Source: Candidatus Dormiibacterota bacterium
GTDB lineage: Bacteria; Chloroflexota; Dormibacteria; Dormibacterales; Dormibacteraceae
Direction: 5' to 3'
NCBI GenBank assembly: GCA_003151935.1
Contig: PLYZ01000007.1
Span: forward strand, 1 to 50,596
DNA length: 50,596 nt
The notes under the pieces are model-generated. The model saw nothing but the letters and a program-made list of their open reading frames with translations. It was not told where the DNA came from and made no database searches. Made by a program: the position numbers and the translations under genes. Positions 19,424-35,111 of the stretch are shown in pieces (the stretch's first letter is position 1; every line of letters starts with the position of its first letter).

Positions 19424-19502
19424 TCTCCTCTCCCCGTACAGGGGAGCAATCCGTAAGTCCCATCTTCATTGCCGCTTTCGAAGGGGCGAGGAAGAAGAGG
19501 GC
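19424..19502. repeat. Repeat of second family between convergent genes
   Basis: The core GGAGCAATCCGTAAGTCCCA and following TTCATTGCCGCTTT (19443-19478) match 48080-48115 with a few differences. The core is flanked by C/T-rich then G/A-rich arms, which can form a stem. It fills the gap between two convergent genes and probably serves as a two-way transcription barrier. Confidence 0.6.
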
Positions 19503-20591: not shown

Positions 20592-20639
20592 GTCTCCACA
20601 TTAGAGAACGCCCAGGTGCGCCTGTGGCTTGGCGTCCTG

Positions 20640-20834
20640 TCAGTAGATGTAGGGCCAGCTCCTGTTGCGCTTGAACACGACCTTGCATCCTTCGCAGCGG
20701 AAGACGATCTGGAGGTGGCGCCTCCCGATCGCCGCCGCGTCACGCCCGCACACGGGGCAGGATGCTGTCTCCATCTGGAAAGGCGCTGGCAGGGGTTCGA
20801 CCTTGATCTCTAAGCGTCGTCTCTTCTTTGACAT
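20640..20834 (-). CDS. Small zinc-ribbon protein
   Basis: A 64-aa protein with CPVCGRD near residue 26 and CEGCKVVF near 47, two CxxC knuckles separated by about 20 residues, as in zinc ribbons. A basic start (MSKKRRRLEIK) suggests nucleic-acid contact. It lies 34 bases downstream of the MerR regulator in the same direction, so the two may be cotranscribed. Function unknown. Confidence 0.72.
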   Translation of the reverse strand: MSKKRRRLEIKVEPLPAPFQMETASCPVCGRDAAAIGRRHLQIVFRCEGCKVVFKRNRSWPYIY

Positions 20835-20868
20835 TTACCTCTTCCCTAAACCCGGAACCGGGGGTTAT

Positions 20869-21234
20869 TCAGACGTCGAGCTGCGACACGTCCAGGTTCT
20901 TCAAGCCATCCGGTGCTTCGACACCCGCGTTGTGAAGGCGCTTGAGCAGCGCCAGGATGTAGCGGACGCCGGCGAGATTGACGTGATGCTCGCGAGTGAG
21001 CGTCTGGATGGCTTGCAGCTTCATCACGTCGCGGCGCGAGTAGCGCCGTCGATTGGTCACCGTGCGCTTGGGTTGGATCATGCTCAGGTGCTCGTACATC
21101 ATCAAGGTGCGCGGATGAACCTCCAGGATCTCCGAGGCCACGCTGAGCGTGAAGATCGGCTTGTCGAGATCGATGGCGTCGGCTCGTGAGGCCACGTTGG
21201 TGGCCGCGATGGGGTCGCGCTGCCTGAGCTTCAT
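20869..21234 (-). CDS. hspR: MerR-family regulator, HspR-like
   Basis: A 121-aa protein. FTLSVASEILEVHPRTLMMYEHLSMIQPKRTVTNRRRYSRRDVMKLQAIQTLT is the winged helix-turn-helix of the HspR branch, with the Y-E-x-x-x-M/G-L-I-x-P pattern. There is no C-terminal metal or ligand domain, only AGVRYILALLKRL. HspR represses chaperone operons (dnaK, clpB) in Actinobacteria. No chaperone gene lies next to it here, so its target would be distant. A short operon with the zinc ribbon is likely. Confidence 0.8.
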   Translation of the reverse strand: MKLRQRDPIAATNVASRADAIDLDKPIFTLSVASEILEVHPRTLMMYEHLSMIQPKRTVTNRRRYSRRDVMKLQAIQTLTREHHVNLAGVRYILALLKRLHNAGVEAPDGLKNLDVSQLDV

Positions 21235-21253
21235 ATCTTTCTTGGTGCGCCGG

Positions 21254-21259
21254 ATTATA
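21254..21259 (-). promoter_or_regulatory. Probable -10 box of the HspR-like gene
   Basis: On the minus strand the sequence is TATAAT, 19 bases upstream of the ATG at 21234. No good -35 hexamer is seen, and the short distance allows only a very short leader. Confidence 0.4.
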
Positions 21260-21409
21260 TGGTTTAAGCGACTGTTGGCCTAACTTTGGGTGACAGAGGC
21301 GATTGCAGATTCGGTGCCATTCTGGATCCGATTTATCGGGCTGGCAAAGTATTTTTGTTAAGTATTACGGACTAAATACCGAAGCCGGGTACCTCCATAT
21401 AGTTACGCC

Positions 21410-21967
21410 GTGTCCGTCCTGATCAGCCTTCTGCTCGTCAGCGTTTCCGTCGGGCTCAGCAACTTTGCGGGAGCGATCGGGATCGGACTGAGCGGAATCG
21501 ACGCCCGAACCAGGATTCGTGTCGGGATCGCCTTCGGGTTCTTCGAGGCACTCATGCCCTTGATCGGCCTGATCCTCGGGGAAGCGGTCGCCGGCTACAT
21601 CGGACACCAGCTGGCGGGCTACGTGGCCGGCGGCATCCTGATCCTCACCGGCCTGTACACGATCTTTCAGGGCCGCCAGGTCAAGGGCGAGGACCAAGCT
21701 CCGCGGAGCCTGCAAACGCATCGCCTCGTCATCACTGCGCTCGCCTTGAGCATCGACAACCTGGCCGTCGGGTTTGCGCTCGGCGGCCTCCAGGTTCAGA
21801 TCCTGCTGGCCGCCGCGACGATTGGCATCGTCAGCGTCGCCATGTCGCTCGTCGGGCTCGAGCTCGGCCACCGGCTTGGGCGGCGCGTCGAAGAGTGGAG
21901 CGAGGAGATCGGCGGCGCGGTTCTGATCCTGGTCGGCATCGCTATCGCGACGGGCATCCTAGGCTAG
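21410..21967 (+). CDS. MntP-like manganese efflux pump
   Basis: A 185-aa membrane protein starting with GTG. Six hydrophobic segments form two halves. Each half carries a related acidic or polar helix: LSNFAGAIGIGLSG near residue 16 and ALALSIDNLAVGFALGG near 110, the latter with the conserved SIDN of MntP/LysE-type exporters. In the first half the usual Asp is Asn. MntP exports Mn(II). The AT-rich upstream region (21340-21400) probably holds the promoter. I could not see a yybP-ykoY manganese riboswitch there. Confidence 0.72.
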   Translation: MSVLISLLLVSVSVGLSNFAGAIGIGLSGIDARTRIRVGIAFGFFEALMPLIGLILGEAVAGYIGHQLAGYVAGGILILTGLYTIFQGRQVKGEDQAPRSLQTHRLVITALALSIDNLAVGFALGGLQVQILLAAATIGIVSVAMSLVGLELGHRLGRRVEEWSEEIGGAVLILVGIAIATGILG

Positions 21968-21989
21968 CCGCGAACCTACGATTACCTGC

Positions 21990-22784
21990 GTGACTGAGAT
22001 GCCGGCGCTCGAGCAGGTCGCGCTCGCGGTCGACGAGCACGTCGCCACCGTCATGCTCAACCGCCCGGAGCAGCGCAACCCGCTTTCCGGAGCGATGCTG
22101 CGCGACCTCGCCGCTGCGTTTACCTGGTGCAAGCAAGCGCCTGAGGTCCGCGTCGTCGTCCTGACCGGGGCGGGCGACCGGGCCTTTTGCGCCGGAGCGG
22201 ATCTAGCGAGCTTCGACGGAGAAATGACCGACCTGGAGCGCCATCGCAGCCGCGAGCTCTTCGTCGAGCTGTTCACGCTGATGGCCGGTCTCGGCAAGCC
22301 AATCGTCGGACGGATCAACGGTCACGCACTGGCCGGCGGCCTGGGGCTTGCCTGCTCGTGCGACCTGCTCGTCTCGACCGATACCGCGACCTTCGGCACG
22401 CCGGAGATCAATGTCGGGATCTGGCCGATGATGATCCAGGCGATCCTGTCGCGAAACCTGCCGCGCAAAGTGCTGCTGGAGATGGAGATGCTGGGCGACC
22501 GCTGGACGGCCACCCAGCTCCAGGCGTTCGGGGTGATCAACCGCGTGGTTCCTCACGACCAGCTCGACGCCACCGTCAGAGAGATCACGGACAAGCTCGC
22601 GAAGAAGTCGCCCCTCGCCATGCGCCTCGGCCGCGATTCGTTCTACCGTCAGCAGGACATGGAGTTCGCCGCCGCGCTCGCGTACCTGCACAGCCAGTTC
22701 ACCTTGATCACGCTGACCGATGATTCGAAAGAAGGAATCAAGGCCTTTTTCGAGAAGCGCGAACCGGACTTCAAGGGTCGGTGA
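21990..22784 (+). CDS. Enoyl-CoA hydratase/isomerase
   Basis: A 264-aa crotonase-fold protein. VATVMLNRPEQRNPLSGAM, VVLTGAGDRAFCAGADLASF (oxyanion hole) and GRINGHALAGGLGLACSCDLLVS are clear. The Glu of the second catalytic position lies in FGTPEINVGIWPMM. It hydrates an enoyl-CoA. It is separated from the acyl-CoA carboxyltransferase gene by 4 bases, so the two are cotranscribed and likely share a branched-chain or propionate-type route. Substrate unresolved. Confidence 0.9.
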   Translation: MTEMPALEQVALAVDEHVATVMLNRPEQRNPLSGAMLRDLAAAFTWCKQAPEVRVVVLTGAGDRAFCAGADLASFDGEMTDLERHRSRELFVELFTLMAGLGKPIVGRINGHALAGGLGLACSCDLLVSTDTATFGTPEINVGIWPMMIQAILSRNLPRKVLLEMEMLGDRWTATQLQAFGVINRVVPHDQLDATVREITDKLAKKSPLAMRLGRDSFYRQQDMEFAAALAYLHSQFTLITLTDDSKEGIKAFFEKREPDFKGR

Positions 22785-22788
22785 TCCC

Positions 22789-24315
22789 GTGAGCAATCCG
22801 CGCCATCGCGAGCTCCGCGAACGGGCGTTGAAGGGTGGCACCCGCTACCTTCCGAAGCTCCGCGAGCAGCACAAGCTGACGGCGCGCGAGCGGCTGGACC
22901 TGCTGCTGGATGCCGGCTCGTTCATCGAAGACGGCCTCTTCGCCAATGTCATGGCCGAGGACCTTCCGGCGGACGGGGTGGTGACCGGGCTTGGCGCCAT
23001 CGACGGCAGGCAGGTGGCAGTGATGGCGAACGACCCGACCGTCAAAGCCGGCAGCTGGGGCGCCCGCACGGTGGAAAAGATCGTTCGCATCCAGGAAACG
23101 GCGGCGCGGATCCGTGTGCCTCTCTTCTACCTTGTCGACTCCGCCGGCGCGCGCATCACCGACCAGATCGACATGTTTCCCGGCCGCCGCCACGCCGGGC
23201 GCATCTTCTTCAACGAGGTCCAGCTGTCCGGCCAGGTGCCGCAGATCTGCGTGCTGTTCGGCCCATCGGCGGCCGGCGGCGCGTACATTCCCGCTTTCTG
23301 CGACGTCGTGATCATGGTCGAGGGAAACGCGTCGATGTACCTCGGGTCGCCGCGCATGGTCGAGGTCGTGGTCGGCGAAAAGGTCAGCCTCGAAGAGCTG
23401 GGCGGAGCACGGATGCACTGCACCGAGAGTGGATGCGGGGATGCCCTGGTCGCCGATGAACAGGAGGCGATCGAGTTCGCGCGCGCCTATTTCAGGTACA
23501 TGCCTCAGCGCTCCGGAGAAAAGCCAGCGTCGTCCGAGGCCAGACCTGCCCGGGCGGCATCGAAACCCATCGGCGAGCTGATCCCAGAAGAGGCCAATCG
23601 GGGTTACGACATGCGCAAGCTGGTCGAGGCCATCATCGACGAGGGCAGCTGGCTCGAGATCAAGAAGCTCTTCGCGAAGGAGCTGCTCACCGGCTTCGCC
23701 CGCCTGGACGGGCGCGCCGTCGGCATCCTGGCGAACCAGCCGATGCAGAAGGGTGGCGTGCTGTTCAACGACTCCGCCGACAAGGCCGCCCGCTTCATCT
23801 GGCTGTGCGACGCGTTTGAGATCCCGCTGCTGTTCCTGGCCGACGTCCCCGGCTTCATGATCGGCACGGACGTCGAGCGGCGCGGCATTATCCGGCATGG
23901 CGCCAAGATGATCAGCGCCGTCTCCGAGGCGACGGTGCCGAAGATCTGCGTGATCGTCCGCAAGGCCTACGGGGCGGGGCTTTATGCGATGGCCGGCCCG
24001 GCTTTCGACTCCGACTGCGTGATCGCTCTGCCATCGGCCCAGATCGCCGTCATGGGCCCGGAGCCCGCGGTCAACGCCGTCTTCTTCAACAAGCTCGCGG
24101 AGCTGCCCGAAAGTGAGCGGGCGGCGCGCCGCAAGCAGCTCGAAGACGAATACCGCCAGGACGTCGACCTCTACAAGCTGGCCTCCAACCTGATCGTGGA
24201 CGACGTCGTCGAGCCCGAGCAGCTGCGCGATTCGCTGATCGCGCGATTCAGGGCGTACTCGACCCGGGTCTCAGCCTCCCGACCAAACCGCAAACACGGA
24301 GTCCCGCCCGTCTAG
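22789..24315 (+). CDS. Acyl-CoA carboxylase carboxyltransferase (beta) subunit
   Basis: About 508 aa from the GTG at 22789. Crotonase-like N- and C-halves: LTARERLDLLLDAGSFIE near the start, FGPSAAGGAYIPAFCD and MYLGSPRMVE in the first half, FLADVPGFMIGTDVERRGIIRHGAKM in the second. It transfers CO2 from carboxybiotin to an acyl-CoA (propionyl, methylcrotonyl or acetyl type). The biotin carboxylase/carrier subunit is not in the window. The enoyl-CoA hydratase immediately upstream suggests leucine or related catabolism, as with LiuB-LiuC. Confidence 0.9.
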   Translation: MSNPRHRELRERALKGGTRYLPKLREQHKLTARERLDLLLDAGSFIEDGLFANVMAEDLPADGVVTGLGAIDGRQVAVMANDPTVKAGSWGARTVEKIVRIQETAARIRVPLFYLVDSAGARITDQIDMFPGRRHAGRIFFNEVQLSGQVPQICVLFGPSAAGGAYIPAFCDVVIMVEGNASMYLGSPRMVEVVVGEKVSLEELGGARMHCTESGCGDALVADEQEAIEFARAYFRYMPQRSGEKPASSEARPARAASKPIGELIPEEANRGYDMRKLVEAIIDEGSWLEIKKLFAKELLTGFARLDGRAVGILANQPMQKGGVLFNDSADKAARFIWLCDAFEIPLLFLADVPGFMIGTDVERRGIIRHGAKMISAVSEATVPKICVIVRKAYGAGLYAMAGPAFDSDCVIALPSAQIAVMGPEPAVNAVFFNKLAELPESERAARRKQLEDEYRQDVDLYKLASNLIVDDVVEPEQLRDSLIARFRAYSTRVSASRPNRKHGVPPV

Positions 24316-24396
24316 AGGAGATTCACCTCCCCACCATGTGGTGAGGCCGGCTCCGCCCGTAAGCGGGCGGTGCCGGGTGGGGCGGCCCGATAAGGA
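24316..24396. repeat. Hairpin-rich repeat between convergent genes
   Basis: Two hairpins: CACCA-tg-TGGTG (24332-24343), then CCGCCCG-taag-CGGGCGG (24353-24370), extended by GGC/GCC outside a T-T mismatch. The ACCTCCCCAC element also opens the palindrome at 43098. It separates two convergent stops and lacks a U tract. Confidence 0.55.
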
Positions 24397-25065
24397 TCAG
24401 CCCACCCTATGGAACGGCACGGCGTAAGTGACGACGATCACGTAGAACGTCACGCTTGCGCTGATCACCGCCAGGTGAAACAGCTCGTGGTAGCCGAATA
24501 CCCGCGGCCACAGGCGCGGCCACTTGAAGGCGTACGCCGCCGCGCCCAGCGAGTACTGCAGGCCGCCTAGCGCCATCAGCACCGCCGCCACCCACCCGAG
24601 CGCCGCCGTCAGGGGCACCAGGGCGATCACCGCCACCCAACCCATGGCCAGGTACAGCGAGGCGAGCACCTGGCGAGGGATGCTTAGGAAAGGTGCGGCG
24701 CCGGCGACGCCGGCTGCGGCCGAGATCCACACCGCCGCCAAAACGCCGATGCGCCACCACCCGTCCAGCACGTTGAAGACGAGCGGGGTATAGGTCGCGG
24801 CGATGAAAACGAAGATGGTGGCGTGGTCGGCGCGGCGCAGCCAATCCTTCACGCGCGGCGGCCACTTGAAGATGTGATACGTCGCGCTCACGCCAAACAG
24901 GAGTACGAGCCCCGCTCCATAGATCGTCATCGAGATGAGCTTTGCGGTGTCGTGGCGCGTGATGACGATGAGCGCGATGAGGCCGGCGATCGCAACGAGC
25001 GCGGCCGCGGCATGTGACCACCCGCGCATGAGCGGCTTGGCGAGCAAGGTGTCGGCGGACTTCAT
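24397..25065 (-). CDS. Hemolysin III / PAQR family membrane protein
   Basis: A 222-aa protein with seven hydrophobic segments. SATYHIFKW near residue 60, RRADHATIFVFIAATYTPL and FGYHELFHLAVISAS near the C-terminus carry the conserved Ser/His/Asp/His residues of the HlyIII/adiponectin-receptor family, thought to bind zinc and act as a ceramidase- or hydrolase-like membrane enzyme. It stands alone with no functional context. Confidence 0.88.
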   Translation of the reverse strand: MKSADTLLAKPLMRGWSHAAAALVAIAGLIALIVITRHDTAKLISMTIYGAGLVLLFGVSATYHIFKWPPRVKDWLRRADHATIFVFIAATYTPLVFNVLDGWWRIGVLAAVWISAAAGVAGAAPFLSIPRQVLASLYLAMGWVAVIALVPLTAALGWVAAVLMALGGLQYSLGAAAYAFKWPRLWPRVFGYHELFHLAVISASVTFYVIVVTYAVPFHRVG

Positions 25066-25086
25066 CTCGCGCGGAATGCTACGACC

Positions 25087-25827
25087 TCAGAGCAGGCGAG
25101 ACGCAGCGAGTCCGAGCGACAGCAAGACGATGCCCCACGACGAGGCCGCGAGGGCTCGCTCCAGAGGGCGCAGCAGCGTGGGCCTGTCCAGCTCGAGCTG
25201 AGAGCCGTCGGCGAGGATCAATTCGCCGGTCACCGACCTGCTCCGCCGGCGCAGCAGCCGGGCCGGGGTGCTCAGCATCCGCTGCGCGTATGACAGGGCG
25301 TAGCCCGCGACTGCGACCGCAAGCGCGGCAAACGAGAGCCGGCCGGTCTGCGCGAAGTACGCCGTCAAGACGGGAAAGGCGCCCCACGAGAGGGCGAACC
25401 AGAAGTCACCGTGGAGCTTTCCGCGCAATAGCTCCAGGTTGTAGGCAAACACGAAGAACACGCCCATCGCGATGAACGGAAGGAGCCACGGACCCACTAC
25501 GTAGACGCCCGCAGCTCCAAGCGTGACCGCCCCCAGGAGGCCGATCACTGCCGCCACCCATAGAACGTTCGCCGGAATCTCGGTCTGAAGCGGGCGGCCC
25601 CTCAGCTCGTCGAGGGCATGCGCGGCGATGCCCACGGCGAGAAAGAAGGCAAGGAGGGTGGCGACGAGCCGGACGATGTTCAACGTCGGGGCGAGGCTCG
25701 CGCCGATCAGCACGTAGGAGAGGTGCCACGCGGTGTAGGGCGGATGAAGCAGCGCCCAGACGTCCCTGCGCCAACCGGTCGTGCGGGCCGCGTAGTAGGC
25801 CGGTCCAAGTACCTCCGCCTCAGGCAT
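25087..25827 (-). CDS. UbiA-like polytopic membrane protein
   Basis: A 246-aa protein with about six to seven hydrophobic segments. HALDELRGRPLQTEIP after TM2 and AYNLELLRGKLHGDFWFALSWGAFPVLTAYF after TM4 recall the two aspartate-rich loops of UbiA prenyltransferases, though the classical NDxxDxxxD is not intact. It overlaps the upstream UbiE-like methyltransferase by 8 bases. This pairing resembles prenylation plus methylation of a quinone or other lipid. The assignment is an inference from weak motifs. Confidence 0.5.
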   Translation of the reverse strand: MPEAEVLGPAYYAARTTGWRRDVWALLHPPYTAWHLSYVLIGASLAPTLNIVRLVATLLAFFLAVGIAAHALDELRGRPLQTEIPANVLWVAAVIGLLGAVTLGAAGVYVVGPWLLPFIAMGVFFVFAYNLELLRGKLHGDFWFALSWGAFPVLTAYFAQTGRLSFAALAVAVAGYALSYAQRMLSTPARLLRRRSRSVTGELILADGSQLELDRPTLLRPLERALAASSWGIVLLSLGLAASRLL

Positions 25828-26548
25828 CTTCTTTCGTGCCCCACATCACGAGCCCCCCACCCATGCTCATCACGCGCCACCCGACATTGACCATCCCGGC
25901 GGCCTTCCACGCAGCGACTAGCCGCGGCAACGGCCAGCGTGCGTAAAAACCCTCTATGTTCGGGCCGAGAAATCGGCCGACGTCCCACCATGGCCTGCCG
26001 CCAAACAACAACCCGGCGGCCGGCAGCAGCGTGCGCGTGTATCCACGCCACGCTCCACGCCAGCCCACTTTGGGTGGGACATAGAAGTCCAGGCTTGCCA
26101 TATGGCCGCCCGGCCGGATCACCCGGGCCAGCCCGGCCAGCGTCGCCTCTGGATCCGCGACGTAGCGCAGCAGGTAGGTGAAGCTGACGGCGTCGAAGTA
26201 CCCGGGCTGATACGGAAGGGCTTCAGCCCGAGCCAGCTCGAGGGTGATGCGTCCGGCCAGGCCCGCCCGCTGCACCCGCTGCCGTCCGCGCGCCAGCATG
26301 GCATCGCTGATGTCCACGCCGGTGATACGCGCCTCGGTTGCTGCCGCCAGCGCGATGGCTACGCCGGCGGTCCCCGTCGCTACGTCAAGAATCGTGTTCG
26401 GGCGATGGGTGGAAAGGCGACTCACCAGCTCGCGGCGCCACTGCGCGTTCTGCCGGAAAGAGAGGACCTCGGCCAGCTCGTCATAGCGCTTTGGCAGCCC
26501 GCTGAAGAGCTCGATGGCAAACGCGTTGTCGCTTACCTGGTCTTGCAC
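25820..26548 (-). CDS. UbiE-like class I SAM methyltransferase
   Basis: A 242-aa protein starting with GTG. SAM-binding motif I is LDVATGTAGVAIALAA, then GVDISDAM, a motif II-like ALPYQPGYFDAVSFTYLLRYV and IRPGGHMASLDFY. Similarity is to the UbiE/COQ5 group that methylates menaquinone or ubiquinone precursors, but the C-terminal half is unusual. It sits upstream of and overlaps the UbiA-like gene, so a shared lipid or quinone substrate is likely. It diverges from the GNAT gene. Confidence 0.78.
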   Translation of the reverse strand: MQDQVSDNAFAIELFSGLPKRYDELAEVLSFRQNAQWRRELVSRLSTHRPNTILDVATGTAGVAIALAAATEARITGVDISDAMLARGRQRVQRAGLAGRITLELARAEALPYQPGYFDAVSFTYLLRYVADPEATLAGLARVIRPGGHMASLDFYVPPKVGWRGAWRGYTRTLLPAAGLLFGGRPWWDVGRFLGPNIEGFYARWPLPRLVAAWKAAGMVNVGWRVMSMGGGLVMWGTKEDA

Positions 26549-26597
26549 GTCGCCTCAGCCTACGGGGGACGGGCAAACGTCGCAAACTGGCGGCTTG

Positions 26598-27389
26598 TTG
26601 AAGCGCGATCGAGCCGATGAGAACGCGAGGCGGTTTCAGGCCTGGCAGCTGGCAGCGCTCGACGCTCACCCCGCCGGAACCGACCTGCTGTCCTTCGGGC
26701 CCTTTCGCGCGGTGGTTCCCGACCTCCGTCAACCGGGCGCGTGGGTGACGCTCGTCGAGGGATCGGTTGACGAAGGCGAGACGAAGCAGGCCGTGGCCGG
26801 CCTTCGCTCGGTCTTCGTGAAGCGGAAAGCCCAGCTCGAGATCGAGTACAACGAAGCGCTGTTCCCACAGGTGGGAGCCTGGCTGGAGGCGGCAGGATTG
26901 ACGCTCGCTGAGCGCAACCCGTTGATGGCCTGCCGGCCCGATGGGTTCAAGCCCTCTGCCGCGCCCCACGTGATCGTGCACCGCCTGACGACGGTGTCCG
27001 ATGCCGCTGACCTCCACGGATTTCAGACGCTCCGCTGGACCAATGGTGGGGACAACGAAGAGAAGGTTCCGCCCGCCGAGCAGCTGAAGAAGCAGCTTGC
27101 GTCGGAGGCCAGCGTCTACCTGCTGGCGTGGCTGGATGGTGAGCGCGCGGGCACGGGTGTATCGCATTCGTTGAAGGGGGCGGCCGAGATCGTCGGGGTC
27201 GTGACTCGAAAGGACAAGCGACGCCGGGGAGTCGCGGCGACGGTGACCTCCGAGCTGGTTGCCCGCCACTTTGCGGCCTACGGGGACTTCGTGTTCCTGG
27301 ACGCGGCGAACGACGAGGCGGCGCGGGTGTACGAGCGGCTTGGCTTCACTGGGTTTGGGGACAACGTGGTTTATCGCGGCCGCCCGTAA
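26598..27389 (+). CDS. GNAT-family acetyltransferase
   Basis: About 263 aa from a TTG at 26598 (26595 is also TTG; the open frame starts at 26514 but would overlap the divergent gene). The C-terminal half is a GNAT fold: EIVGVVTRKDKRRRGVAATVTSELV holds the acetyl-CoA pyrophosphate loop (RxxGxA), and VFLDAANDEAARVYERLGFTGFGDNVVY is the typical ending. The N-terminal half is a weaker, perhaps degenerate GNAT-like repeat. The acceptor is unknown. Confidence 0.75.
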   Translation: MKRDRADENARRFQAWQLAALDAHPAGTDLLSFGPFRAVVPDLRQPGAWVTLVEGSVDEGETKQAVAGLRSVFVKRKAQLEIEYNEALFPQVGAWLEAAGLTLAERNPLMACRPDGFKPSAAPHVIVHRLTTVSDAADLHGFQTLRWTNGGDNEEKVPPAEQLKKQLASEASVYLLAWLDGERAGTGVSHSLKGAAEIVGVVTRKDKRRRGVAATVTSELVARHFAAYGDFVFLDAANDEAARVYERLGFTGFGDNVVYRGRP

Positions 27390-27415
27390 ACCACGCGTTG
27401 TCAAACAGGCAAAAT

Positions 27416-27979
27416 ATGCGAATGCGGCAGACGGACGAACTGACCCGGCTAGAGGAATGCCTCGACCACATTCGTGAGGCGCCCGCTGACGGCGGAACGG
27501 TCGAGCTGATCGCCAGGCGGCCGGCGGTGGACGAGCGGGAGATCCTCACAGAAGCGACGCTCGATGCGCACGACGGCCTGGTGGGAGACACTTGGCGTGC
27601 GCGCGGCAGCAGCAGCACCCCCGACGGCAGCGCCAACCTCGAAGCGCAGCTGACCTTGATGAACGCAAGGGCGGCGGCCGCGATCGCCGGCGAGCGTGAC
27701 CGCTGGGCTTTGGCCGGTGATCAGCTTTTTGTGGATTTCGATCTCAGTCTCAGCAACCTGCCGCCCGGCAGCCGGGTTCAGATCGGTTCGGCGGTGATCG
27801 AGTTCAGCGAAGCACCCCACACGGGATGTGCGAAGTTCTCTGCACGCTTCGGCAACGATGCCCTTAGATTCGTCAACTCGCCAATCGGCCGCGAGCTCCG
27901 GCTGCGCGGAGCCAACTGCCGGGTCGCAGTAGCCGGCACGGTTCGCCCCGGCGACGCGATCAGGAAGCTGCCGAACTAA
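27416..27979 (+). CDS. MOSC-domain protein
   Basis: About 187 aa from the ATG at 27416. LDAHDGLVGDTWRARGSS near the start of the domain, LFVDFDLSLSNLPPGSRVQIGSAVIEFSEAPHTGCAKFSARFG and the terminal GTVRPGDAIRKL match MOSC domains; the Cys in HTGCAKF is the conserved one. MOSC proteins are linked to molybdenum-cofactor sulfur chemistry. No partner gene is adjacent, although a molybdopterin synthase fusion lies at 48152-48850. Confidence 0.82.
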   Translation: MRMRQTDELTRLEECLDHIREAPADGGTVELIARRPAVDEREILTEATLDAHDGLVGDTWRARGSSSTPDGSANLEAQLTLMNARAAAAIAGERDRWALAGDQLFVDFDLSLSNLPPGSRVQIGSAVIEFSEAPHTGCAKFSARFGNDALRFVNSPIGRELRLRGANCRVAVAGTVRPGDAIRKLPN

Positions 27980-28146
27980 GCGACCGAGCTCGTCCGTCAG
28001 CACCACGCAGTTTGGTGCCCTACTTGGACATGCACGTGCTGATGGGTGGTCTATGACCGTTGCCATCGAGCACTAACTGCCGAAGGGCTCGCCGTCCTGG
28101 CCCAGGCAAGTCATCAACTCGGACCGTGGAACTCCACAATTGAGTT

Positions 28147-28383
28147 ATGGCACTAACCGCCTTCGGAGCAATCGCAGTGACCTTGATGATGGTGATGTAC
28201 GCTCTTGAGCGCCGACACCGTGGATTCGTCCTCGCGTTTGCATGTGGTTGCCTACTGTCGAGCGCATATGGCTTTTTGGTGGGTGCATGGCCCTTCGGCG
28301 TCGTGGAACTCGTGTGGGCCGGAGTAGCCATGCGCCGGTATATGGACGCCGGTTCGAGTCCCGACCCAGCCTCACCACGCTGA
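28147..28383 (+). CDS. Small two-helix membrane protein
   Basis: A 78-aa protein with hydrophobic segments at about 3-20 and 27-60 (FVLAFACGCLLSSAYGFLVGAWPFGVVELVWAGVA), ending in a polar tail (GSSPDPASPR). The pattern resembles small unknown membrane proteins found in Actinobacteria. It lies at the left border of the accessory zone. The last 40 bases read like a tRNA T-arm and 3' end (GGTTCGAGTCC then CACCA), but they do not fold properly. Confidence 0.5.
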   Translation: MALTAFGAIAVTLMMVMYALERRHRGFVLAFACGCLLSSAYGFLVGAWPFGVVELVWAGVAMRRYMDAGSSPDPASPR

Positions 28384-28708
28384 GCCAACCACGGTGTCCG
28401 TGGGGAATCCCCGCCACAGAAGCGCAAACCATTGGCCGGGGGCTGTGACCGACGCGTTTTATCGGTTTGGACACCACAGCTTGTGCTGGCCGCGCAATCC
28501 GCAGGACCAACACAGATCGGATTCGGACCTCGACCCGAGGGCTGACAGCAGGCGTGCAAAGCGTGCTGGCTGTCTTCGGTCAAACCTTTGCGCGATCGCC
28601 GGTTTCTGAGGCCGCTCAGCCATTAACCAGGGAGGCATTCTTGTCTCAGCTCAGCGTACTACGGGCTGGCCTGGCCGGGTGCGAGCTCACCCATTGTGTG
28701 GGGGAAGG
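28384..28708. other. Non-coding stretch at the left edge of the accessory zone
   Basis: About 325 bases between the small membrane protein and tRNA-Arg(CCG). No ORF here has convincing codon pattern or ribosome-binding site, and I see no strong hairpin or repeat. Confidence 0.4.
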
Positions 28709-28781
28709 TGCGCCTGGCAGGAATTGAACCTGCTGCCTTTCGGTCCGGAGCCGAACGCTCTATCCGGTGAGCTACAGGCGC
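28709..28781 (-). tRNA. tRNA-Arg(CCG)
   Basis: Full cloverleaf on the minus strand: acceptor GCGCCTG/CAGGCGC, D-stem GCTC/GAGC, anticodon stem TTCGG/CCGAA with loop CTCCGGA (anticodon CCG at 28748-28746), five-base variable loop and T-arm GCAGG-TTCAATT-CCTGC. The discriminator is A; CCA is not fully encoded (ACC then T). A 42-base 5' fragment of the same tRNA lies at 31367-31408. Confidence 0.95.
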
Positions 28782-28821
28782 GTGCCCCGTAGCAGACCAC
28801 ATCCGGAAGTCTCCGTGCGGC

Positions 28822-28862
28822 GTCTGTCACCCAGCTCTGTCACCCAAGCTGCGCGCGGCCCC
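28822..28862. repeat. Direct repeat DR1 (left)
   Basis: Two CTGTCACCC units, then CAA-CT and CGCGGCCC. The same arrangement occurs at 31241-31277 in the same orientation. The pair brackets 28879-31227. Confidence 0.6.
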
Positions 28863-28878
28863 GGTCAGTCCGTCGCCG

Positions 28879-29691
28879 CTACTTGAGTAGAGGAGCGAAC
28901 AACGTGATCGCCTCGTCTGTGAACGAAATCAACTCGTCTAGGGTCCCTATTAGAGGCAGTCCCTTACCCGGCCCATCCTGGTCGAACGCGACGAAAGTCC
29001 GGAACTGCTGCTCGACTGGCACATCGGGCGTCTGAGCGCCGAGCTTAAGCCGGAGTAGCTCCGTGCCGTCTTTGATCGGGACGTTCCGAACGTCGCCGCC
29101 CCCGATCACAAGGTGCTCAATATCAACAACAGGTGCGCCTTGCCCAATCGCTAGATGCTGAAGCTGCACCGTGCCGCCGACGACGTTCAAGCGCCGATGC
29201 TTGTCCCAAATATCGAGCTTGTGAACCAGAAACAGCGGCCGCAGTTCTGGGTCCGCTGATCCTTGTCGCCCCGGATGAAGCTGCAGCTGGTCGATCAACG
29301 CTGCTGCGGTCCGTCCGAAGCGCCTCTGGTTTTGCTCTAGGGTGGCTTTCTGCTGAACGGCCGCTGGCGTCTTCGAGGGATCGACTACAGGAAAGACGAT
29401 CTGGATAGCCTCGGGGTCGGTCGGTTTCCCACCGTTGGTGATCCACAATTCCCAAGCCACGTAATCGAGCGCTGCGTGGAGGTTATGAACCACGTCGCCG
29501 ACAAGGGCGCTCCACTCCGAGGGAATGGCTTGCGAAACTCGGGCACGCCAGATTTTCTCCCCGGTGGGATTCAGCTCGACAACCACCCCAAAGGGATTGA
29601 GGCCGTGAAACTCTTGGTGCTTCACTAGCAGCGATCGAAGGTGCTCCTTTGCACGCAGCACCTTTGACCTCGCACCGTCTAGCTTCGCCAT
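28879..29691 (-). CDS. Unknown protein, third gene of island operon
   Basis: A 270-aa soluble protein. I recognise no named domain. The segment VGDVVHNLHAALDYVAWELWI (about 65-85) is a helix with an H-N-L-x-x-A-L-D pattern seen in many uncharacterised actinobacterial proteins, sometimes likened to HEPN-type helical bundles. I cannot confirm the RxxxxH motif of a HEPN nuclease. The C-terminal half has two LR-rich strands and FVAFDQDGPGKGLPL. It ends the three-gene minus-strand operon, 29 bases after the membrane gene. GC content looks lower than in the flanks. Confidence 0.7.
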   Translation of the reverse strand: MAKLDGARSKVLRAKEHLRSLLVKHQEFHGLNPFGVVVELNPTGEKIWRARVSQAIPSEWSALVGDVVHNLHAALDYVAWELWITNGGKPTDPEAIQIVFPVVDPSKTPAAVQQKATLEQNQRRFGRTAAALIDQLQLHPGRQGSADPELRPLFLVHKLDIWDKHRRLNVVGGTVQLQHLAIGQGAPVVDIEHLVIGGGDVRNVPIKDGTELLRLKLGAQTPDVPVEQQFRTFVAFDQDGPGKGLPLIGTLDELISFTDEAITLFAPLLK

Positions 29692-29720
29692 CGCACCTTA
29701 CCTTTCACGTGGTTGTCGCC

Positions 29721-30293
29721 CTAGACGGACCAACCGGTCAACGACCACAGTTCCGAACCTACCGCCACCGCTACGGCTACCGCACCGAGAGCCTCAGCAG
29801 CGATGCTGAAAGTGAGCACCTGGGCTTTCAAAGCGTTCGCTTTTCGAGCCCGATCGAGCACCTGCACGTTTAGCACGGCGTCGTATCGCGCCGCTTCGAT
29901 TGGATCCGGAATAGTCCACTCCTTCGGCTGAACGCGCTCCCTCAAGACCTCGACGTCAGCTTCCTTGTACTTGAGGGGCAGGTTCGCCCACAGCCCAAGA
30001 AGAGCCGCCAGAGCGAACAGTGCGACTCCTAACAGGAGAGCGCGCCCAGCCCAGACACCAACGTCGAGGTGCGCCTGATTGACGTTCCCGCGGGTGAAGG
30101 CAACCAATCCGAAGAGCAACGTGGCCAGCACGCTCGAACTGGTGATGATCGCCAAACCTCTAGCTTCTAACGATGCCTTGGTGGCTCGTTCCTCATCAAG
30201 CTGAGCCTTGATCGTTGGTCCGTACGACGAGCCCTTGACATCTGACAGCGCCACCTTCGGCCCCTTTTCAGCAGTGGGCGGCAGGTCGGGCAT
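29721..30293 (-). CDS. Three-helix membrane protein of island operon
   Basis: A 190-aa protein. An N-terminal cytosolic part with a charged helix (QLDEERATKASLEARG) is followed by TM1 about 47-67, TM2 about 84-104, a soluble stretch of roughly 50 residues rich in charge (VLRERVQPKEW), and TM3 about 158-178. The layout (charged helix, TM pair, soluble domain, TM) recalls membrane effectors of some phage-defence systems such as SLATT or PycTM proteins, but I cannot assign a family. It is second in the operon, 6 bases after a 47-aa gene. Confidence 0.7.
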   Translation of the reverse strand: MPDLPPTAEKGPKVALSDVKGSSYGPTIKAQLDEERATKASLEARGLAIITSSSVLATLLFGLVAFTRGNVNQAHLDVGVWAGRALLLGVALFALAALLGLWANLPLKYKEADVEVLRERVQPKEWTIPDPIEAARYDAVLNVQVLDRARKANALKAQVLTFSIAAEALGAVAVAVAVGSELWSLTGWSV

Positions 30294-30299
30294 GTCGCG

Positions 30300-30443
30300 C
30301 TAGTCCCCGGCCCCCTTCTTGACGGTTGTTGTTTGATCTTTGTCGTCCTGCTGTTTGCGGCGACGCGACTCCTCTAGTTCGAGCTGGCGTTCCTCTTCCT
30401 CTGCCTGTTTCCGCTTCTGTTCCTCCGCTTCGCTGTCACTCAT
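30300..30443 (-). CDS. 47-aa highly charged helical peptide, first gene of island operon
   Basis: An ATG at 30443 with GAGG just upstream opens a 47-aa frame, MSDSEAEEQKRKQAEEEERQ, continuing with LELEESRRRKQQDDKDQ and ending KKGAGD. Almost every residue is Glu, Lys, Arg, Gln or Asp, as in a single long alpha-helix or coiled coil. Its stop is 6 bases before the start of the three-helix membrane protein, so translation is coupled. It is too short for an ordinary ORF cut-off. Confidence 0.6.
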   Translation of the reverse strand: MSDSEAEEQKRKQAEEEERQLELEESRRRKQQDDKDQTTTVKKGAGD

Positions 30444-30625
30444 GCTTACCTCACTTTCGACACGTCGGCGGGCCACCCGCGCCGCGTCAGCTTATACTCG
30501 TGGGGCAGAGCGCTTTAGGCGTCGGCACAAGTAGCAACCTCCCCGACCGGGCGGAGGCACAGCGAACCTCAGAGCGGCGACGGCACGCAGCTCCCTTGGA
30601 GTGCCACAGTCACCAAGGAGCAGCC

Positions 30626-30820
30626 ATGAGCAAAGACCGCCCGGAGTCGGTGCAGTACGTCGCGGAGCGGCTCGGCGACCGCGTCGAAATCGTGATCGAG
30701 ACGTACGCACGTGACCTCGAAGATGCGGGCGGTGGCGCCATCGAGACTCGCGGCGATGATCGACGCACCGCGGCGAACGGCCACCCTCGCAGACCAGATG
30801 TAGACTCCGCACCACCGTGA
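30626..30820 (+). CDS. 64-aa protein resembling a tyrosine recombinase tail
   Basis: The ATG at 30626 follows an AAGGAG. The segment ESVQYVAERLGDRVEIVIETYARDLED looks like the last catalytic region of phage integrases, normally vxERLGHxxxxxTLxxYxHL, with the conserved Tyr kept and the His changed to Asp. The other catalytic residues are absent, so it cannot recombine DNA alone. It is probably a decayed integrase end in the island. It overlaps the lipoprotein start by 4 bases. Confidence 0.5.
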   Translation: MSKDRPESVQYVAERLGDRVEIVIETYARDLEDAGGGAIETRGDDRRTAANGHPRRPDVDSAPP

Positions 30821-31227
30821 GGCGCTCTGCGCCTGTTGTCATTGCAATCGTGCTCGCGGGGTGTGGTAGTGGCGGCGCCGCACCTCTCGCCTCAGGCGCG
30901 CCGCCTAGCCTCGCAGCGGCGCCCTCGCCGATTCCATCACCTGTGCAGCCAATCGCTTTGTCAGGTACGAACTCGAAAGTCACCGATCCGATGGACATTC
31001 CTCCCGGTAGCTACCGCGTTAGTTGGCAGGCAACCGATACCGGGCCCTACAGCGACAACTTCGTCGTGTATGTCCAGGGTCAGAGCAAGAACCTCTTGGT
31101 CAACGTGGTCATCCCGGCCACCCCCAAAGGCGAGGCGCTGTTCACATCCGGTGGTGGTTCTTTCATCGTGGATGTCGAGACGAGTTCGGCCACGTGGACG
31201 ATCACGTTTACGTGGCTGTCGGCTTAG
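30817..31227 (+). CDS. Small secreted lipoprotein
   Basis: A 136-aa protein starting with GTG. A short signal sequence ends in LAGCGSG, a clear lipobox. A Pro/Ala/Ser-rich linker is followed by a globular domain with PPGSYRVSWQATDTGPYSDNFVVYVQG and SFIVDVETSSATWTITFTW, a beta-sandwich-like pattern. It is probably a surface-exposed lipoprotein. Its start overlaps the stop of the integrase-tail ORF, so the two are linked in expression. Confidence 0.75.
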   Translation: MRRSAPVVIAIVLAGCGSGGAAPLASGAPPSLAAAPSPIPSPVQPIALSGTNSKVTDPMDIPPGSYRVSWQATDTGPYSDNFVVYVQGQSKNLLVNVVIPATPKGEALFTSGGGSFIVDVETSSATWTITFTWLSA

Positions 31228-31240
31228 TCCAGTCGGCCCG

Positions 31241-31277
31241 TCTGTCACCCCACCCTGTCACCCAATCTCGCGGCCCT
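31241..31277. repeat. Direct repeat DR2 (right)
   Basis: Right-hand partner of DR1 at 28822-28862: CTGTCACCC, CCTGTCACCCAA, CT and CGCGGCCC. It follows the lipoprotein stop by 13 bases. Downstream, 31280-31366 is GC-rich with repeated GGACCCG. Confidence 0.6.
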
Positions 31278-31366
31278 TAGTGGACCCGGCAGGACCCGTC
31301 CGGATCCGATCTCCCCGCGGATTCAGACGTTCGGACCCCGTCGGACCCGCCCGGGCCCGGCCTGGG

Positions 31367-31408
31367 TCGGTCCGGAGCCGAACGCTCTTTCCGGTGAGCT
31401 ACAGGCGC
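31367..31408 (-). pseudogene. 5' fragment of tRNA-Arg(CCG)
   Basis: Forty-two bases on the minus strand match the first 42 positions of the intact tRNA-Arg(CCG) with one change in the D-loop (T to A). The match stops inside the anticodon stem. The fragment lacks the T-arm and acceptor 3' strand, so it cannot be functional. Confidence 0.85.
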
Positions 31409-31441
31409 GCTATGGCCTTTGCAGTCTAAACTGCGCGCTTC

Positions 31442-32077
31442 GTGGACCGGCTCATCGCGATCCTCGGTCTGAGCATCTTGATGGCGGCGTGCCAGAGCAC
31501 AACGCCGCCCCCTGTGGTCAGCCCCTCTCCCAGCCCGAGTCCGCACGCGGCGCCCACGGACGCGATCCTGCAGGCGTCCGATGTTCCGGCGGGTTTGACC
31601 CCGTGCCTCGGCTCAGGACCGATCGATGTTTACGTCAACACGCTCGCGCATGCTGACGCGACCGTGGGCGCCCGAGTGGGCGCGCAGTGGGCGCAGCTTC
31701 AGGCTGGGGGCGCAACCCAGGGAGCAATTTCGCTCTTCACGTCGACGCCCGCCGCGTGCAGCGCCGAGCTCGCGACAACCTCGAGCGCCAAAACGATCGT
31801 GGCCTTTGTCGCGGTGTTCGCGGATCCCGGGCAGGCCGATCGCGCGTGGAATGCCGGCGTTTTCGGTTTCACGCCTCCGACGCCGGGGGAACTTCCAACC
31901 GGCGTCACGAGCGGGACCGGCACCGGGCTCGGCCTCAGCTCCTGGACGTTCAACCGCCCGCCCGTGCAGCTGGCGTGCTGGCACAAGTCGGTTTTCGTCG
32001 CCCTCGTGGTGGTCGGCAATCTCGACGCCGCCACCTTCAAGGCCGCAACGACCACAATCGATGCTCGCCTAAACTGA
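31442..32077 (+). CDS. Secreted lipoprotein, paralogue of 35202-35846
   Basis: A 211-aa protein starting with GTG. The signal sequence ILGLSILMAACQS has a lipobox-like MAAC. A Pro/Ser linker and a globular domain follow, with DVPAGLTPCLGSGPIDVYV near residue 47, ACWHKSVFVALVVVGNLDAATF near the end, and cysteines at similar positions to the lipoprotein at 35202-35846. The two are therefore paralogues. It is probably a surface lipoprotein; the ligand is unknown. Confidence 0.78.
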   Translation: MDRLIAILGLSILMAACQSTTPPPVVSPSPSPSPHAAPTDAILQASDVPAGLTPCLGSGPIDVYVNTLAHADATVGARVGAQWAQLQAGGATQGAISLFTSTPAACSAELATTSSAKTIVAFVAVFADPGQADRAWNAGVFGFTPPTPGELPTGVTSGTGTGLGLSSWTFNRPPVQLACWHKSVFVALVVVGNLDAATFKAATTTIDARLN

Positions 32078-32084
32078 ACCCCTC

Positions 32085-32160
32085 GCGCCTGTAGCTCACC
32101 GGATAGAGCGCTTGCCTGCGGAGCAAGAGGCAGCAAGTTCGATTCTTGCCAGGCGCACCA
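32085..32160 (+). tRNA. tRNA-Arg(GCG), CCA-encoded
   Basis: Cloverleaf: acceptor GCGCCTG/CAGGCGC, D-stem GCTC/GAGC, anticodon stem CTTGC/GCAAG with loop CTGCGGA (anticodon GCG at 32118-32120), variable loop AGGCA, T-arm GCAAG-TTCGATT-CTTGC, discriminator A and encoded CCA. It should read CGC (and CGU) arginine codons. Bacteria normally use an inosine-modified ACG anticodon for these, so GCG is uncommon. The sequence 32108-32168 recurs at 33274-33335. Confidence 0.93.
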
Positions 32161-32456
32161 GTGCGCCCGCTCCACTGAGCCGCGCCACAACAACACAGGC
32201 GATGCTCCGCTGGCGGTGGGGCATCAAGGCCACCGACTTTGGTGTCGCGCCCGAGTGCTTGGCGCCATCGAATCTTCACCGCCGCTAATGAGCGGCGCTT
32301 AAGCAATAGGGCCTAAAGGCCCTAGTTAACGCCTCAGACAACCCGTATATTCATGACTCGTGTGGCGTCTTGGTCGTGCTGGATGCCGAGGGCTAGGACC
32401 GAACCAGAGTTCAGGATCGGCAGGGGCGTCACTGAAATGGACGCGAGGAGACACCT
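32161..32456. other. Spacer after tRNA-Arg(GCG), with two hairpins
   Basis: Contains GCCGCT-aatg-AGCGGC (about 32281-32297) and TAGGGCC-taaa-GGCCCTA (32307-32324), the latter a likely transcription end for the tRNA. An AT-rich stretch near 32345-32355 may hold the promoter of the secreted-protein gene. No ORF is convincing. Confidence 0.4.
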
Positions 32457-33098
32457 ATGCAGCGTTTTGTGGTCGCACTCATGGTGGCGGCGATGGCCAC
32501 CATCGGATTTGGCAGCGTGGCCTTTGCCAGCCCCAGTGCCTGGACGGAGTACATCTACGACTCGTCCGGCAATGCGTTGAAGGGCGTGGCCCTACCGGAC
32601 TCATCAGGCGGTAGCGCCTCATTCAATTTCGCTTCCGGCGTCTACACCGCCCTGCTCACCACCAGTGACAAGAGCCTGACCGGCGATCTCACTGGAATGA
32701 CGTTGAACGACACGGTCACGGTGTCCGGAGTCACCGGCACATTCGTCGACCAGAACGGCGACGGTTGCGCGACAGCTCCATCCGTGCGGCTGTACTTCAA
32801 TTCCGGAGGAACAGGCGAGGGCGGTCAGCGGGGCTTCTACACGACATTCTGGTGGTCGAACCCCGTTAGCTATCAACTCGCCAACGGGACCGGCACGATG
32901 AACGTGAGCCTCGGCGACCCGAGCCAATGGTCGGACTGGAACGGCACAAATGGGGCATCCGTTCCGGACGCGTTCAGCACTGCGGTGACCAAGGTACACT
33001 CGGTCGGGCTGTCCTTCGGCGGAGGCTGTTTCTTCGAGAACGGCGTCACGACCGATGACGGAACGGGCACCTTCGCCAGCGTGTTCACCGAGACTTAA
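32457..33098 (+). CDS. Secreted protein, unknown function
   Basis: A 213-aa protein. GAGGAG lies 7 bases upstream of the ATG. A signal peptide (FVVALMVAAMATIGFGSVAFA) with a typical AxA-type cleavage site precedes the mature protein, about 188 residues rich in Gly, Ser, Thr and aromatic residues, including FVDQNGDGCATAPSVRLYFN and FYTTFWWSNPVSYQL. It reads as an all-beta extracellular domain. Two cysteine sites might pair. It is the only gene inside the tRNA-Arg(GCG) direct repeat. Confidence 0.7.
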   Translation: MQRFVVALMVAAMATIGFGSVAFASPSAWTEYIYDSSGNALKGVALPDSSGGSASFNFASGVYTALLTTSDKSLTGDLTGMTLNDTVTVSGVTGTFVDQNGDGCATAPSVRLYFNSGGTGEGGQRGFYTTFWWSNPVSYQLANGTGTMNVSLGDPSQWSDWNGTNGASVPDAFSTAVTKVHSVGLSFGGGCFFENGVTTDDGTGTFASVFTET

Positions 33099-33114
33099 CC
33101 AGCTAATAGGAACC

Positions 33115-33146
33115 GGGGTCAGGGCGGCGCATTACGCTCTGACCCC
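33115..33146. terminator. Strong hairpin after the secreted-protein gene
   Basis: A twelve-base-pair stem, GGGGTCAGGGCG/CGCTCTGACCCC with one G-T wobble and an 8-base loop, 16 bases after the stop at 33098. No U tract on the plus strand. Confidence 0.5.
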
Positions 33147-33273
33147 AACAAAGCCGATTGCCGAGCCTGCATTCGTCAGGGCCAACTTAGCTCGCAAGGG
33201 ATAAGCGCAGCCGCGTTGCGCCATCGGCAGCTCAAGCGCGACAGCTGAGATCAGATCGGCCGAATTGGGCAAC

Positions 33274-33335
33274 GCGCTTGCCTGCGGAGCAAAGAGGCAG
33301 CAAGTTCGATTCTTGCCAGGCGCACCAGTGCGCCC
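33274..33335 (+). pseudogene. 3' fragment of tRNA-Arg(GCG), att-like
   Basis: Repeats 32108-32168 with a single inserted A. It covers the anticodon arm, variable loop, T-arm, acceptor 3' strand, CCA and eight following bases. The 5' half of the tRNA is absent, so it is not a working gene. The stretch GGCGCAC-CA-GTGCGCC in it is a perfect dyad. Confidence 0.88.
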
Positions 33336-34045: not shown

Positions 34046-34214
34046 ATTAGCTATCGTCGCGGAAATCCTCACTGTGCGGGCTGGTCTTTCCGGCGCATCG
34101 CGATAGTGCGCGGCCACCTGGCCGGGCTTCGGTACCACCTGCGGCACAAGTGGCGCACATTCAGGGAGGGTGCTCCGCCGGCAAGCGCGAAACGGCCTGA
34201 TGCCGATTCGCCTG

Positions 34215-35111
34215 TCAGCCGGCGGTCAGAAACTTCACCAGCCCGGCCTCGAGTGCCGCGGCGATCAGCTGCTGTCCAGACGGGTCGCCGGCGAGGCGGG
34301 CTTCGGTCGGATTGGTCAGGAAGAGCGGTTCGACCAGTGCGCCCGCCATCTGGCTTGGCTCGTCGACCCAGCCCGCCGACATTGGTCCGAGCTCGATGAG
34401 GTGGTTGTAGGTGCTGCCCGAGCTCGTGAGCGTTGGCGCGGCCAGCTGGTCGTCGGTCCACACGCCCCGATCGGCCGTGCCAAGCGCCACGACGAGGGCC
34501 GATTGCAGATCGGTGGCGAGTTTGCGACTGGCCGGCGCGAAGGTCCGCACGGAGTCGTAGAAAGTCTCGGTGCCGCCGACGGTTGGGTCGGCAAAGGCGT
34601 CGAAATGGATCGACAACAGGGCCGTCGCGCCGGCGGCGTTCGCACACGCGGCGCGGGCTGCCAGGTCTCGATGCTCGGCGCTGGCGGTGAGCGAGCCGTA
34701 GACCGAATCTGAGGCCGACAGCTTGATCACCGTCGTGTCTTGCGTCCGGGCCATCACCACTCGATAGCCGGCGGCTCGAAGCAGGTCGCTCAGCCGCGTC
34801 GCCACCCCAAGCGTGGCGTCCTTCTCCAATGCCTTGCCGCCGCCGGCCACCACGCCAGGGTCCAGCCCTCCGTGACCCGCGTCTATGAACACCGTCTGTC
34901 CCGAGCCCGCACGGGTCGGCGCCAGGCTCATGCATGCGCCGGACTCGAGGTCGGGAAGGAGGACGCGATTCGCCAAGGAGGACGGAGCGGGCGACGGGTT
35001 GAGCTTGTCCGCGGTGGCAACCACGACGCCCGTCGAATCGACCAGCCTGATCACTCCGAAGGCAAGCGCAACCAGAAGCGCGAGAACGAGCGCTGTGCGA
35101 AGCCGGGGCAC
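34215..35111 (-). CDS. N-acetylmuramoyl-L-alanine amidase (Amidase_3)
   Basis: A 298-aa exported enzyme. An N-terminal signal or anchor helix (ALVLALLVALAFGVIRLV) precedes the Amidase_3 domain: FIDAGHGGLDPGVV (zinc His), AGYRVVMARTQD, ATALLSIHFDAFADPTVGGTETFY (second zinc His) and VEPLFLTNPTEARLA with the catalytic Glu. It cleaves the lactyl-amide bond of peptidoglycan stem peptides during division or cell-wall turnover. There is no binding domain besides the catalytic one. Confidence 0.88.
   Translation of the reverse strand: MPRLRTALVLALLVALAFGVIRLVDSTGVVVATADKLNPSPAPSSLANRVLLPDLESGACMSLAPTRAGSGQTVFIDAGHGGLDPGVVAGGGKALEKDATLGVATRLSDLLRAAGYRVVMARTQDTTVIKLSASDSVYGSLTASAEHRDLAARAACANAAGATALLSIHFDAFADPTVGGTETFYDSVRTFAPASRKLATDLQSALVVALGTADRGVWTDDQLAAPTLTSSGSTYNHLIELGPMSAGWVDEPSQMAGALVEPLFLTNPTEARLAGDPSGQQLIAAALEAGLVKFLTAG

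Follow-up and report, generated by a model that had tools for sequence, protein, structure and literature searches.

A paired tRNA-Arg insertion hotspot in a Chloroflexota genome, with one unusually small insert holding a secreted-protein gene

Islands in tRNA and tmRNA genes have been collected systematically by Islander, in which 3760 of 3919 islands carry 3' fragments of the target gene and 159 carry 5' fragments; candidates under 2 kb or without an integrase are rejected by its filters (PMC4383910). CIMEs retain attL and attR but lack genes for integration and transfer, and elements that arrive later accrete with them (PMC5704250). In Dehalococcoides, of the same phylum as the genome described here, islands stand in tandem at the RNA gene ssrA with repeats of its 3' end, and some are without an integration module (PMC3146451). 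The integrases of pTN3-like archaeal elements rebuild the 5' half of tRNA genes, an outcome seldom met in bacteria according to a review (PMC8371274).

The window analyzed here (the whole stretch of 50,596 nucleotides from a Candidatus Dormiibacterota genome) contains one 3'-type and one 5'-type insertion at adjacent tRNA-Arg genes (Table 1). Like Islander islands, the insertion at tRNA-Arg(GCG) consists of a rebuilt, intact tRNA gene, a displaced 3' fragment downstream in the same orientation and foreign DNA between them, with the crossover in the anticodon arm, and an empty attB is found in a relative (PMC4383910). Unlike them, it has no integrase gene inside and falls short of the 2–200 kb of the Islander definition, with 1105 bp between the repeats, so that it fails both Islander filters. 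It resembles a CIME in that attL and attR are retained around a single gene, genes for integration and transfer are missing, and a second remnant stands in tandem with it at the 3' end of a tRNA gene; it differs in being very small and in having seemingly lost its left arm, and an ICE or IME parent, excision and transfer would all be hypothetical in its case (PMC5704250). The tandem arrangement, the 3'-end repeats and the missing integration module are shared with the Dehalococcoides islands, whose recombinase is a serine enzyme (CcrB-like) acting at the tmRNA T-loop, whereas a tyrosine recombinase and the anticodon arm are implied in the window (PMC3146451). As in pTN3-like elements, the elements in tRNA-Arg(CCG) and, elsewhere in the same genome, in tRNA-Pro(GGG) supply the 5' half of the tRNA together with a new upstream region; here, by contrast, the host is a bacterium, and homologues of one integrase group occur at 3'-type and 5'-type sites within one family (PMC8371274).

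The gene-insertion hotspot is thus real and of a known kind, and one of its inserts is unusually small. We consider it probable that this insert is a decayed, integrase-less, CIME-like element that accreted onto an older one at tRNA-Arg(GCG), with a mirror-image, 5'-type event at tRNA-Arg(CCG). The locus places 3'-type and the rarer 5'-type integrations side by side in a little-studied group of Chloroflexota, and its inserts, too small and degraded for island finders, hold intact secreted-protein genes. This points to tRNA-targeting elements as possible carriers of single secreted-protein genes, which they may move or leave behind; integrase, att sites and empty sites together make up a system in which such gene movement is testable.

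Table 1. Features of the paired tRNA-Arg hotspot and of a related element in the same genome (positions in the window unless a contig is given)
Feature	Position	Strand	Basis or remark
tRNA-Arg(CCG), intact, 5' half supplied by inserted DNA	28707-28781	-	
5'-type insert in tRNA-Arg(CCG), 2.6 kb	28783-31366		three ORFs
TGTCACCC repeat near one inner end of CCG insert	28821-28850		
CCG-insert ORF	28879-29691	-	
CCG-insert ORF	29721-30293	-	
CCG-insert ORF	30817-31227	+	
TGTCACCC repeat near other inner end of CCG insert	31239-31268		87% to 28821-28850
Displaced original 5' part of tRNA-Arg(CCG)	31367-31409	-	intact tRNA-CCG of G001 at corresponding place
lipo1, putative lipoprotein, conserved chromosomal neighbour between both tRNA-Arg genes	31442-32077	+	
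tRNA-Arg(GCG), intact, rebuilt target gene, attL side	32085-32160	+	ARAGORN; Rfam tRNA 67.5 bits
att repeat copy 1, tRNA nt 24 to 8 bp past CCA	32108-32168	+	
Younger insert, 1105 bp, without integrase	32169-33273		absent from congener G001
Leader module, upstream region and signal-peptide codons	32381-32520	+	DNA match to three genomes
Cargo gene, 213-aa predicted secreted beta-rich protein, uncatalogued family	32457-33098	+	ORF, signal-peptide-like start, predicted fold
Right end of younger insert	33134-33273		local likeness to right end of G030 insert
att repeat copy 2, displaced 3' part of tRNA-Arg(GCG), one inserted A	33274-33335	+	
Older insert remnant	33336-~34205 (right limit approximate)		absent from G001
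Gene in older remnant, 213 aa	33506-34147	-	relative in G007
N-acetylmuramoyl-L-alanine amidase, conserved neighbour, right border of hotspot	34215-35111	-	Pfam Amidase_3 7e-36; synteny
5'-type element in tRNA-Pro(GGG), 9.2 kb, intact tyrosine recombinase gene	G000:C80 about 19376-28632		L124, L137

Displaced tRNA parts and the sites of relatives

The 76-nt tRNA-Arg(GCG) is identical in most genomes of the family. Its nt 24 to 84 align by BLAST with the downstream fragment at 98.4% over 62 columns, with one 1-base insertion, and a repeat search of the window returns the pair as a 19-mer and a 44-mer, each 100% identical and offset by one base; about 4 × 10−16 exact 44-mer pairs are expected there by chance. 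The first-pass annotation had described a 61-base repeat with one inserted base starting at the anticodon arm. Both searches recover this repeat, and only its start needs a small correction, to nt 24, slightly upstream of that arm. The annotation's single secreted-protein gene between the two copies also holds, as we find one good gene there, with a signal-peptide-like start. The annotation had noted neither the duplicated 5' part of tRNA-Arg(CCG) nor the second inserted stretch, 33336-~34205.

The comparison covered 42 genomes, many of them drafts: the window genome (G000), two congeners and 39 further members of the family. The family shares a conserved order of tRNA-CCG (minus strand), lipo1, tRNA-GCG, gap, amidase, lipo2 and plsC. 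A contig of the congener G001 is collinear with the window at 82-89% identity up to position 28385 (with gaps), across 31367-32169, and from 34209 onward. In this congener 19 bp separate the end of tRNA-GCG from the amidase gene, with neither a second tRNA copy nor the cargo gene, and both 32169-33335 and the DNA of the older remnant are absent. The tRNA-amidase gap is likewise short in five further genomes (G006, G007, G010, G032 and G035), and across the 42 genomes it ranges from ~20 bp to ~10 kb. Some members of the family have different inserts at this site, closed by tRNA-Arg fragments that start at nt 24-31. The annotation had read the repeats as attL and attR and had proposed looking for an empty site in related genomes; that reading is supported by the empty congener site and by the integrase genes that abut this tRNA in other genomes of the family (see below). 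Vertical inheritance of both tRNA copies in all relatives, which the annotation had named as the contrary outcome, is rejected on account of the same empty site.

Displaced 3' fragments of tRNA-Arg(GCG) occur in five of the 42 genomes, the window genome included. When both tRNA-Arg genes are considered, 3' fragments starting at nt 24-32 are found in ten genomes (G001, G003, G004, G012, G019, G027, G030, G040, G041 and the window genome), whereas two genomes (the window genome and G023) have 5' fragments, which end at nt 41-42. One genome, G041, has two 3' fragments in succession on the contig bearing its tRNA-CCG. The congener G001 has a 6-kb insert of its own in tRNA-CCG, closed by a 3' fragment (nt 24-76, 100% identical), just inside which lies a short stretch resembling the C-terminus of a tyrosine recombinase (HGLRHTHATLLLEEE).

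At tRNA-Arg(CCG) of the window, the 5' 43 nt (nt 0 to 42) recur in the displaced part with one change in 43 (98%). Because G001 has an intact tRNA-CCG at the place of this fragment, the 2.6 kb between the two is an insertion in the window lineage. The intact tRNA, a 5' fragment upstream in the same orientation and an empty site in a relative are thus all present, and the element contains no integrase. None of its three ORFs has a family match. The paired TGTCACCC repeats near its inner ends may be recombinase arm sites. Separately, a 5' half of tRNA-Arg(CCG) stands at the conserved place in G023 (L067 324-365, G023:C125), with no intact copy found in that draft; this is possibly another 5'-type insertion.

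The displaced 3' fragment in the window shows one change in 62 columns. At both tRNA genes the fragments are nearly identical to their sources, whereas the lipo1 genes of the window and G001 are ~17% apart; if the fragments evolve neutrally and undergo no gene conversion, the two insertions seem to postdate the split from G001.

Integrases and the ends of the inserts

Intact tyrosine recombinase genes abut tRNA-Arg(GCG) in three of the 42 genomes (G027, G028 and G030). In G030, a gene for a 318-aa enzyme directly follows the tRNA, within an insert that has the tRNA at one end and a 3' fragment of it at the other; the enzymes of G027 and G028, 49% identical to it, occupy the same position. Most homologues in the family are located close to other tRNA genes (Arg-TCG, Gly-CCC, Thr-GGT, Gln-CTG, Val-GAC, SeC and others), and a 3' fragment at the far end was found for the Arg-TCG element of G034 and the Gly-CCC element of G028. 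Further homologues are present in G001 and in the window genome itself (contigs C80 and C85). On C80, a recombinase homologue (39%; 27472-28431) adjoins the 5' half of tRNA-Pro(GGG), and the full tRNA gene, identical over nt 1-39, lies 9.2 kb away. This 5'-type element, together with the integrase homologues at 3'-type sites, indicates that the lineage makes insertions of both types. We infer the responsible enzyme from relatives, since no credible integrase or integrase remnant was found in any of the window's inserts.

The younger insert has a GC content of 61.2%, against 65.1% for the window. Its right end is locally similar to that of the G030 insert, the integrase-bearing element at the same tRNA (score 39, 0/200 shuffles), with a right-end motif that is degenerate relative to G030 and G012. 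At its left end we find no recognizable arm or motif and no resemblance to the left end of any other element. No second copy of the 1.1-kb unit occurs elsewhere in the genome or the family. A plasmid search returned short matches only, and among the matches listed all fall at the two tRNA genes. Viral origin was considered and rejected, as viral contigs contain neither an exact match to the tRNA 3' half nor a relative of the cargo. That the ends of the insert coincide with parts of a tRNA argues against an integron gene cassette.

Past the displaced fragment, the older remnant begins (33336 on, CAACTCGTAGATTCCGTATTC) with DNA reminiscent of the G030 insert's left end (TCAACTCGCAGGTTTCGTATTG), a likeness below the scoring cut-off. 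This left end holds the motif CGTATTC, also seen at other element ends: in either orientation it occurs at 9 of 28 ends against once per 13.5 kb of background, in a count for which the motif was picked post hoc and the ends are partly non-independent. No such motif is present at the left end of the younger insert. The gene of the older remnant matches a truncated copy in a genome of another genus (G007; L100 1298-1886, G007:C40) at 86.7% DNA identity over 383 bp, and that copy sits 114 bp past tRNA-Ser(GCT). Because lipo1, amidase and plsC of the window genome are only 66-77% identical to those of G007, this level of sequence identity supports horizontal movement of the gene. As a separate observation, 17 of 18 bases at 34171-34188, near the right limit of the remnant, match the anticodon arm of tRNA-Arg(GCG) on the opposite strand, which could be chance.

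The cargo gene and its leader

Relatives of the cargo protein, 36-47% identical, are scattered over metagenome-assembled genomes of several phyla. Searches of Pfam, NCBIfam, PHROGs and PDB sequences gave no trustworthy family match. The predicted fold is beta-rich (mean pLDDT 82.6), and a fold search with it returned weak matches only (TM below 0.5), including carbohydrate-binding modules and glycan-active enzymes, which hints only weakly at carbohydrate binding. A role as defence cargo was rejected, PADLOC giving no match. Two distant homologues, in Ktedonobacterales (L091 5001-5914) and on a Euryarchaeota contig (L096 518-1766), lie within 0.5 kb of a tRNA-Arg gene; both are on the 5' side of the tRNA and without repeats. 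The idea that the cargo family is generally linked to tRNA-Arg was dropped, and these two cases are not counted as evidence here.

The leader module is 72-74% identical in DNA to genes in the same tRNA-amidase gap of G034, G037 and G013 (L069 7081-7208; L054; L058 10362-10494). Within the 42 genomes, leader matches are confined to these three apart from one 22-nt match in G020, so that, with the window, four genomes from three genera have the same leader and signal peptide at this tRNA gene. The mature protein of G034 is homologous to the window cargo (45%), whereas those of G037 and G013, 64% identical to each other, are of a different type; a relationship between the two types of mature domain (A and B) was rejected, as profile comparison aligned the signal peptide only. 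In G013, G034 and G037 the gene lies within about 30-310 bp of the tRNA, the gap has no integrase, and no 3' tRNA fragment is visible. A constant leader joined to a variable domain may have arisen by swapping of the mature part, at a locus that is either resident or has been acquired more than once, and this pattern is the part of our findings that is least explained.

Origin of the inserts

In the explanation that we consider probable, tRNA-Arg(GCG) would serve as attB for elements with a XerA/XerC-like tyrosine recombinase whose crossover point lies in the anticodon arm. With each element would come a copy of the 3' half, so that insertion restores the tRNA and displaces the former 3' half downstream, and at least two such events would be stacked here. 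The simplest history would be that an older element entered and decayed to 33336-~34205, after which a younger one inserted into the restored tRNA gene and came to lie between near-identical repeats. Deletion would subsequently have removed the integrase and left arm of the younger element, leaving a CIME-like remnant with one secreted-protein gene, and a mirror-image element would have replaced the 5' half of tRNA-Arg(CCG). Within this explanation, we infer the order of events, the loss by deletion and the mode of transfer; the sequences themselves show the repeats, the empty congener site, the varying occupancy within the family, the intact integrase genes of relatives at this tRNA and, in the window genome, a 5'-type element with its integrase gene intact. 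The first-pass annotation had offered either decay of a larger element or capture of a gene as a very small cassette; we favour decay because the left end of the insert has no end motif, there is no trace of an integrase, and the right end is like that of an integrase-bearing element.

The second option, to which we give a lower standing, would make the insert a true minimal, non-autonomous cassette, always of about 1.1 kb, comprising an attP with the tRNA 3' half, one promoter and one secreted-protein gene, and mobilized in trans by the integrases of larger elements. The intact cargo ORF and repeats would fit such a unit, as would the closeness of the same-leader genes to the tRNA in three genomes with no integrase in the gap, the right end resembling that of an integrase-bearing element, and the integrase homologues available in the window genome and G001. 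Against it stand the left end without a recognizable arm or motif, the degenerate right-end motif and the single occurrence of the unit in the genome and family; we regard this reading as unlikely. Because the same leader in four genomes joins two unrelated mature domains, the idea can be widened to a family: tRNA-Arg(GCG) would host one-gene cassettes, each with a constant leader and an exchangeable secreted domain, moved in trans by the integrases of larger elements. This wider proposal seems to us distinctly unlikely.

The shared leader can also be read as the mark of a long-standing resident of the tRNA-amidase gap that was lost in most genomes, the tRNA fragment having come from another event or from a gene-conversion accident. 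The same leader at the same place in three genera is consistent with this, its DNA identity is similar to that of neighbouring chromosomal genes (66-75%), and the same-leader genes without a visible 3' fragment leave room for a resident locus. Yet the cargo has the intact tRNA on one side and the displaced fragment on the other, a position in which only insertion-borne DNA is expected, the congener site is empty, the insertion looks younger than the split from G001 to judge by the single change in the fragment, and profile comparison shows no relationship between mature domains A and B, all of which makes residence quite improbable. We find it extremely improbable that segmental duplication, slippage or an assembly artefact made the partial tRNA copy without site-specific recombination. 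The segment has no integrase and the genome is a 97-contig draft, as such an origin would allow, but the intervening DNA is missing from the congener, not duplicated, and the flanks are collinear with G001 on both sides. Moreover, breakpoints in the anticodon arm recur in many genomes and at both tRNA genes, and intact integrase genes stand at the same site in relatives.
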